Of a stretch of DNA of 64,000 bases, positions 2,376 through 20,300 are shown one piece after another. Position 1 is the stretch's first letter; the number at the start of each line of letters is the position of its first letter. Both the position numbers and the translations under genes were made by a program. The DNA is from Deltaproteobacteria bacterium (GTDB lineage Bacteria; Myxococcota; JACPTQ01), in assembly GCA_016192705.1 (NCBI GenBank), contig JACPTQ010000029.1:1-64000 (forward strand), given 5' to 3'. A model generated the notes under the pieces. The model made no database searches. It worked only from the letters and a program-made list of their open reading frames with translations, and was not told the origin of the DNA.

Positions 2376-2434
2376 GGGATTGATATCGAGAACTTGCTGC
2401 GCGAGCCGCCGGCCCACGTGAAAAACTAGACACC

Positions 2435-2650
2435 TCAGGTGCCGCCAAATCCAATCGTGACCTTAGTTCCGTCCTCGACGATGACCGGCACGCGGCGCAC
2501 GCCTTTCGACAGCGCCAACATCTCGCCGATGCGATGCGCGTCACGGTTCTTCACGTCGACGTAAACGACCTCGACCTTTTTTGCCTGGAACGCCTCACGG
2601 GCGGCCGTCGTGTACGGTCAGGTGTCTTTGCCATAAATGACAACAGCCAT
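2435..2650 (-). CDS. CXX-star type small selenoprotein (UPYT), in-frame UGA
   Basis: On the minus strand a strong ribosome-binding site (GGAGG, 6 bases before the start) leads into ATG 2650. The frame reads MAVVIYGKDT, then UGA at codon 11, then PYTTAAREAF and on to a normal UGA stop at 2435, 71 residues in all. With UGA read as selenocysteine the product is a complete thioredoxin/glutaredoxin-fold miniprotein: first beta strand, U-P-Y-T active site, helix, second strand (VEVVYVDV), and a cis-Pro strand (RRVPVIVEDG) followed by TIGFGG. Small redox proteins with a UXX(S/T/C) motif are an established selenoprotein family (UXX-star/CXX-star). A conventional gene finder would miss it. It is divergent from the PhaC-like gene. 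Confidence 0.85.
2596..2620 (-). promoter_or_regulatory. Selenocysteine UGA with possible SECIS hairpin
   Basis: The recoded UGA is at 2620-2618 on the minus strand. Five bases after it, 2612-2596 can fold as a small hairpin: CACG pairs with CGUG, a two-base AC bulge follows, GG pairs with CC, and CCG forms the loop. Bacterial SECIS elements lie just 3' of the UGA and are poorly conserved outside enterobacteria, so the hairpin is suggestive only. Confidence 0.4.
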
Positions 2651-2688
2651 CTCGCACCTCCTTGCGCCTTGGATGATACAATAACCGC

Positions 2689-17361: not shown

Positions 17362-20300
17362 CTAACGGACGGGATTCTTCAACCGATAGATCTCATCCTC
17401 AACCTCTTTCGCGAGCGCTCGCTGAATCTTAGCTTGCCGCGCGTCGACCGCCGCTGGTTTTGTGTGGGGGTCGCCACTCTTTCGACCGGTCTTCGCTGCG
17501 TGCAACTTGAGAAACAGTTCGAACTCGCGAATCGCCGTACCCGTTTGGCCCGCGATTTTGGCCGCCCGCCCGAGCATCATGTGGGGCTCGGGGTCGGTTG
17601 GGTCGAGGCGCGCAACCGCCCGAAAATCGTTGAGCGCAAGCGTCGGCAAATTCACCTGCATATACGCCTGTGCGCGCTTCTTGTGCGCATCGATGTTTCC
17701 CGACTTGAGTGAAATCGCGCGGGTGTACATCTCGATCGCCTTCTGCGGCTGACTCGACGCCACGAAATAGTCGCCAAGGAGAAGATAAGCCGCGCGGTGG
17801 GTTTTCGTACGTTTCAGAATCGCTTCGAGCAAAACCTTCGCGGCCGGCAGCTCGTCGCGCGAAAATCGAATTCGCGCCGCGCGAAACTGCGCCTCGATGA
17901 TGTCAACTTCGTTTCGGTCTTTTGTGAGAAGTTTGACCGCTTCTTCGTAATGGTAAAGCGCCTCCGCGCCGTTGCCGAGGCGATCGAATGTCTTCGCGAA
18001 CCAGAGTCGATAGACGCCGTTCACCGGGGTTTTGTCGGTCGCCGCTTTCAAGTCGTCTTGCGCCTCGAGAAGAAGGCGTTGGGTGCTCATGTCGCCGCCC
18101 AACTCTGTGAGCGCGATGAGCGTTCGCGCGCGCCAATAACGCGCCTCGATGATTCCGGGGTTCTGTTGGATCACTTGGTCGAGGTAGCGGCGCGCATCGA
18201 GAAACGCGTCGCGGCCGCCGGCGTCGAAGTTCGCGCGGGCGATTTGGACCAGGAGGAACGGGTCTTTCGGGTTTTCTTTGATGGCGAGATTGAATTGGTT
18301 GAGGGCGTCCGCGAGGCGCTTCTGCTGGCGGTAGTTGAGGGCGAGTTCAAGGCGAAGGCCAGGGTAGTGGGGATCGAATTTCTGGACGAGGTCGAGCGCC
18401 TTCAAGGCGAGCGCCGAACGCCCCGTCTGCCCATAAACCCGCGCAAGATTGAAGTGTGCGCTGACGAAGCTCGGCGCTTTCGCGATGGTTTTTTTGTAAG
18501 CCTCTTCAGCGGCCGGGAAATCGCGTTGCTCGAGATAAACGTCGCCAAATCCCGCCGTGACGGCCGGTGCGTCCGGGATAACTTTCTGTGCGTCCTTGAG
18601 AACGCTGAGCGCGTCATGAAAGTTTTTGCGGGCGAGGAGCCCCTGAATGTAATGAACGAAAATCTCCGCCTGAATCTCGCGCGCCTTTTCGGATGAAATC
18701 GCGCGCGACGCCTCAATCGCAACGCGAAACGCCTCGACCGAGTCGGCTGTTTCATTGACCTCCGGGTGCGCGAAGATTCGACCCCTCAAACTCATGAGGC
18801 GCGCCACGCGCTCATTCGTGCGTTCGATTTCGCGCGGTGTTCGGTTCGCCCTTTTTTTCTCTTCTTCAAGGAGACGGAGCGCCAGCTCGCTCGATTTTCG
18901 CGCACGCAAAGGTGAGCCGGCTCCCAACTCGGCACTGCCGAGCCCAGTTTGCGCGTCAACGTCGGGCGGCGAGGCTTTGATGGCGGCCTCGAAACGGGCG
19001 GTCGCGGCTTTCCAGTCGCGGCGTTTGAGTTCGAGGCCGCCGAGGTCGGTGAGGAGCTCGCTTCGAAGGGACGCGAGCTGTGACTTCGCAAGGCCGGCGT
19101 CGAGCCACTTGATGGCGGCAACGGTGTCGCCGTCGTCGCGCGCGAGGCGGCCCAAGACCGCGTAGGCTTGGGCGAGCTCATCGGGGGAGGCGGCGGCGAG
19201 GAGGGCGCTTTGCGGTGCGACGAGAAGGTTGAGGTAATGGCGGGCGCCGGTCTTGTCTTTGAGGAGGTCGAGGTGCACGAGCTTTCCGAGCGCGAGGTAG
19301 GACGATGCGTGGAGCGGGCTCGCTTGGAGCGCGTTGCGGAAGTGCTTGAGCGCGGTTTGAGCGGGGGAGGCGGCGGGTGCGGTTGCGCGTGTGGGAGCGG
19401 TTGCGGTTGCGGTTGCGGGCGCGGGTGCGGAAGCGGTTGCGGTTGCGGGTGCGCGTGTGGGAGCGGAAGCGGTTGCGGGCGCGGATGCGGTAGCGGGAGC
19501 GCGTGCGGGAGCGGATGCGGGTGCGCGAGCGGGGATTTGACGCAAAGGCGCGGAGACGCCAAGGGAAGCGGGCTCATTCCTTGCGTCTTTGCGGCTTGGC
19601 GCCTTGGCGTTGAAATCCCCTGCGGACGCGGGAGCGGGAGCGGGTGTAGCCGGCGTCGCCGAGTGTCCTATTGTTGCAAGCACCAACCGCCCCAACTGGT
19701 AGTGCGGGGCTGCGTACGTCGCGTCGATTGTCGCGGCCTCGGCGAGCGCCCTGACAGCCGCCTCGCGGTCTCGCGGGTCAGAATCCGTTCCGCTCTTCAC
19801 CTGCTCGACAAACGAGAGGCCCCTCAAAAACGACACCTCGGCGTCGCGTTTCAGAGTCGCTTCAGCCCGATCGAGGTTTTCGCGCGCGGTCGTGAAGTTT
19901 CGCTTCACGATAAACCACACGGCTTTCGCCTTGTTGTATTCCGGGTCACGAACGCCGGCCTTTTCAAGCTCGTTCATGAGCGCCTCCGTTGACGCTTCTG
20001 CTATCGTACGCGCACCCGACTGCGGCCCGTGCAGAATGAGAATGATCGACTGTAGCTTGAGGAGTTGCACGCGCGCTTTGTTCGGAATTTCCGCCAAGAG
20101 TTTGAGCTGCGCATTTTCGTCCGAGCTCCGCTCAGCGCCATCGCGGGCCGCCGATCGCTCCGGCGCTTTCGCTTTTGTTCGCGTGAGCGCCTGAAGCTGA
20201 TCGAACGCCTCCATATACTTGCTGAAGACGTCGACCCGAATCGCTGCGCGGGCGTCCGCGAGCGCCTTCTCTGGATTCCCAGCGGGTTCACCCGCCGCCC

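Follow-up and report, generated by a model that had tools for sequence, protein, structure and literature searches.

A double-Sec reading frame on the minus strand

In the window analysed here (a stretch of 64,000 nucleotides from a Deltaproteobacteria bacterium, contig JACPTQ010000029.1), a minus-strand gene predicted to encode a small selenoprotein with two in-frame UGA codons was identified (Table 1). The frame is opened by an ATG at position 2650, with the ribosome-binding motif located a few bases 5' of this start, and it extends beyond the second UGA, in the same frame, through two sense codons to a TAG stop (UGA GGT GTC TAG, positions 2437-2426). When TGA is read as selenocysteine (Sec, U), the deduced product comprises 74 residues: MAVVIYGKDTUPYTTAAREAFQAKKVEVVYVDVKNRDAHRIGEMLALSKGVRRVPVIVEDGTKVTIGFGGTUGV. 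A preliminary description of this DNA had placed a 71-codon selenoprotein gene with a single Sec at the same location. Its start codon, ribosome-binding site and UGA at codon 11, within a U-P-Y-T motif, were all retained, whereas its end at position 2435 was not, as the TGA taken there to be the stop is assigned here as a second Sec codon in view of the match to the family model, the codons present in relatives and a hairpin located further downstream (see below). Judged from these lines of sequence evidence, the gene is real and encodes a selenoprotein with two in-frame Sec codons, the frame first reported being too short. The gene boundaries are thereby corrected; a C-terminal Sec-UGA is easily mistaken for a stop.

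Table 1. Features of the double-Sec gene and its surroundings (positions within the window)
Feature	Position	Strand	Details and basis
Double-Sec UXX-star protein CDS	2426..2650	-	74 aa, TAG stop at 2426-2428; NF041114 match, translation, AlphaFold2 pLDDT 95.9
UGA codon 11, Sec of UPYT active-site motif	2618..2620	-	Relatives: TGA 14/66, TGC/TGT 52/66 (search pattern admitted only Cys or Sec)
UGA codon 72, C-terminal Sec of U-G-V-stop	2435..2437	-	Relatives: TGA 64/66, one Cys, one Ser
Ribosome-binding site AAGGAGG	2656..2663	-	Shortly upstream of ATG; direct sequence reading
Candidate SECIS, codon 11	2591..2603	-	CGCC[CGUGA]GGCG, loop 18 nt past UGA; marginal bSECIS fit
Candidate SECIS, codon 72	2400..2418	-	CGUGGGCC[GGC]GGCUCGCG (2418-2400), 8-bp stem, loop GGC, loop 24 nt past UGA, -12.3 kcal/mol

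The deduced protein was matched over its full length by the NCBIfam model NF041114 ('UXX-star selenoprotein family 1'), with a score of 108.2 bits against a cut-off of 72 and an alignment covering model positions 1-70 of 70, the final U-G-V included. In comparison, the protein truncated at the second UGA scored 104.4 bits, its match stopping at model position 68. A chance match is implausible given the E-values obtained for this model (1.8e-31) and for the Pfam Glutaredoxin model (2.7e-11). Both hallmarks of NF041114 were present, i.e. a C-terminal U-x-x-stop and a U/CxxT motif at the glutaredoxin active-site position (U11-P-Y-T14), while UXX-star families 2 and 3 (NF041211 and NF047338), which belong to the same superfamily and are of the same length, scored 49 and 53 bits, below their respective cut-offs of 100 and 97. 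UXX-star membership, as had originally been proposed, is thus upheld above a curated cut-off, and the protein is very probably a double-Sec member of this family.

In a 2026 review, the family is listed as 'distant Grx-like protein 1', with the motif UxxT and two as the number of Sec residues (PMC13188914, Table 1), so the double-Sec form was already known. The protein described here resembles this entry in its full-length match, the UxxT motif, two Sec residues and the C-terminal U-x-V-stop, with no distinguishing difference. Judged from the end of the model and the names of the sibling families, the stop codon is most likely what the 'star' of UXX-star stands for (U-X-X-stop), in which case the family-defining Sec would be that of codon 72 and not that of the UPYT site. 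As an NCBIfam model for the family exists, current NCBI annotation could detect the gene.

Predicted fold and possible function

Structure prediction using AlphaFold2, based on 56 sequences, returned a strand-helix-strand-helix-strand-strand arrangement in which the chain ends after the strand formed by residues 63-66. Foldseek matched this model to glutaredoxins (A. fulgidus Grx-1, cGrx1 and methanoredoxin), and a profile search retrieved E. coli Grx3, the first active-site Cys of which aligned to residue 11. The thioredoxin-type fold suggested earlier for this Sec-encoding frame is therefore borne out at the level of prediction, and the fold is predicted to be that of a glutaredoxin truncated after the fourth strand. 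Both cGrx1 (PDB 7c10) and E. coli glutaredoxin 3 (PDB 3grx) share the glutaredoxin fold, their first active-site Cys corresponding to codon 11. Classical glutaredoxins, however, carry a CxxC motif and continue beyond strand 4 into a C-terminal helix, whereas the UXX-star protein possesses a Thr in place of the second Cys (Thr14, invariant in the 56 sequences) and ends after strand 4 with Sec-Gly-Val. A classical dithiol glutaredoxin was ruled out by the presence of UPYT in place of CxxC and by the end of the chain after strand 63-66.

The protein may represent a stand-alone glutaredoxin-like oxidoreductase with two selenocysteines. In the glutaredoxin active site, Sec11 would then take the place of the nucleophile, and Sec72 could substitute for the absent CxxC partner as the resolving residue. 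The bond between the two would be a diselenide in this species, and a selenenylsulfide where relatives carry Cys at codon 11. The likely task of such a protein would be the thiol/selenol-based reduction of a disulfide, a peroxide or a metal(loid) adduct. With respect to the proposed resolving role of Sec72, we consider the arguments for and against to be about evenly balanced. Cys/Sec, Sec/Sec and (rare) Cys/Cys pairs can be naturally compared across this family within a single small fold.

The main alternative for the function of the protein retains the same gene and the same two Sec residues, but assigns the selenols to the binding of a metal or metalloid (e.g. mercury or arsenic) and not to a redox pair. 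It has been suggested in a review that the Sec of UXX-star proteins may be a metal-binding ligand or may contact unknown substrates (PMC13188914), whereas the placement of residue 11 in the glutaredoxin active site and the lack of metal-resistance genes among the recurrent neighbours examined argue against a metal-binding role, which we regard as possible, albeit rather improbable. Clustering of the genes neighbouring the 66 relatives (see below) revealed only local, clade-level conservation and unrelated functions (NDK, TPR, radical SAM and EF-hand proteins). As these neighbours are not conserved and offer no functional clue, no operon partner is claimed.

Relatives and candidate SECIS hairpins

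Relatives were collected by a search of 195 genomes of the phylum (Myxococcota), in which 21 members exceeded the NF041114 cut-off and one further member came close to it, and by a contig scan, which added members from Planctomycetota, Acidobacteriota, Thermodesulfobacteriota, Bacillota and other groups. The contig scan set is biased towards Cys11, since its pattern required Cys at codon 11, whereas the phylum search is free of this bias. The tail pattern demanded a stop codon, which cost none of the 22 phylum members. The final set comprised 66 genes from several phyla, four duplicates having been left out together with a divergent, mostly Nitrospinota group (L104, L107-L115, L119-L133 and L135-L141), the members of which carry Cys11, are devoid of the C-terminal Sec tail and end near GYTGD.

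As had been anticipated for homologues of this protein, codon 11 was found to specify either Cys or Sec in all 66 genes, the pattern having admitted only these two residues; UGA was observed at this position in 14 of the 22 members from the phylum search. At codon 72, the two genes deviating from UGA were L077 (Cys, TGC) and L067 (Ser, TCA), representing rare replacements of the C-terminal Sec. From UGA72 in 64 of 66 genes and the 14 UGA versus 52 Cys codons at position 11, the C-terminal Sec appears to be constant and Sec11 facultative. On a poorly resolved tree, approximately eight changes of the codon-11 state were observed, at least four of which fall on supported branches.

Codon 72 was followed by two further codons and a stop in each of the 66 relatives, corresponding to x-(V/I/L)-stop. 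The first of these residues was mostly Gly, for which all four codons were used, the second was V, I or L, and much synonymous variation was present in both. These observations argue against a 71-residue selenoprotein with a lone Sec at codon 11 that ends at UGA72, as do the Cys at codon 72 of L077, the extension of the family model to the V preceding the TAG, and the strong hairpin that follows UGA72 in almost every relative, also where codon 11 is Cys and no other Sec codon would need a hairpin. Although TGA can serve as a genuine stop and UGA72 is overlapped by a terminator-like hairpin that is followed by a T run, this shorter version is considered highly improbable.

Hairpins of the SECIS type, as predicted from sequence, follow both UGA codons. 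According to the published bSECIS model, such a hairpin lies 16-37 nt after the Sec-UGA, with an energy threshold of -7.5 kcal/mol. The candidate for codon 72 fits this model in its stem of 8 bp, spacing, energy and the G at the first loop position, and is located 3' of the TAG stop in the window; when positions were drawn at random from the window, ~1.5% of them scored equally well or better. In 63 of 64 relatives, the matching place was occupied by a perfectly paired stem of 5 bp or more; the stem sequences were very different, and the loops included GGTC, AGGTT and CGTGC. Swapping of the hairpin arms between relatives, followed by re-optimisation, reduced the score from 19.2 to 9.2. The family represents a clean test system for bacterial SECIS elements positioned beyond the stop codon.

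A terminator-like hairpin, GGCACC-TGA-GGTGTC followed by TAGTTTTTC (positions 2443-2429, minus strand), was observed to overlap the codon-72 UGA and could compete with the downstream SECIS candidate. If active, this terminator would end the transcript ahead of the codon-72 SECIS, which would then be lost in this species. Three terminator-like sites were counted in the stretch, compared with 0.6 in shuffled sequences, and the tails of the relatives carry no T run directly behind the stop, short ones excepted.

The hairpin associated with codon 11 is a marginal candidate, consisting of 4 bp with G as the second loop nucleotide and a predicted energy that varied with the folded stretch, from -7.1 to -9.2 kcal/mol. 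Its score was matched or beaten at 28% of random window positions, making it weak when taken alone, and the sequence downstream of codon 11, folded alone, displayed no stability excess over shuffles; the case for a SECIS at this codon is therefore purely one of a comparative motif. The sequence CCCGTG was present at this hairpin in 13 of 14 Sec11 genes versus 1 of 52 Cys11 genes (p = 9e-12, for sequences that are not independent), and Arg18 was encoded by CGT in 13/14 and 7/45 genes, respectively. When independent tree pairs were compared, the association of CCCGTG with Sec11 took the same direction in nearly all of the approximately four usable pairs, a number too small for significance.

Highly improbable as well is a reading in which only Sec72 is genuine and UGA11 represents a recent mutation or sequencing error in a gene that is dead in this strain, since the predominance of Cys11 in the collected set and the weak codon-11 hairpin of the window are countered by the occurrence of UGA11 in 13 other genomes, 12 of which share the CCCGTG motif, and by an otherwise intact frame with coding-like codon usage both 5' and 3' of UGA11. 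Under the double-Sec reading, the gene, its boundaries now corrected, encodes a functional-looking selenoprotein from a catalogued family, and sequence-based evidence points to two putative SECIS elements. A more elaborate proposal, tentative in its entirety, is that of a 74-residue redox protein acting through an intramolecular diselenide, whose C-terminal Sec would depend for its decoding on a SECIS situated entirely in the 3' UTR, past the stop, and whose active-site residue would switch between Sec and Cys among relatives.

Selenocysteine machinery and other UGA-interrupted frames

The machinery for Sec incorporation, the presence of which in this organism had been predicted, was located in the same genome. 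A tRNA-Sec with a UCA anticodon (76.4 bits), SelA (557.8 bits), SelB (648 aa, with the elongation-factor part above cut-off and the frame continuing through the C-terminal region) and SelD (368 bits) were identified. The selD gene (L029, G000:C70:50295-51221, minus strand) contains an in-frame UGA within GAGUACK, suggesting that SelD is probably itself a selenoprotein. Across the phylum, tRNA-Sec was detected in 19 of 22 genomes with a UXX-star gene, compared with 117 of 173 others (p = 0.09), the three lacking it being drafts; this co-occurrence is consistent with the selenoprotein reading, without being decisive.

A scan of the window for further genes interrupted by UGA yielded one weak candidate, a plus-strand TGA at positions 19081-19083, which, outside the double-Sec gene, is the sole TGA of the window to be flanked on both sides by coding-like codon usage (55 and 302 codons).
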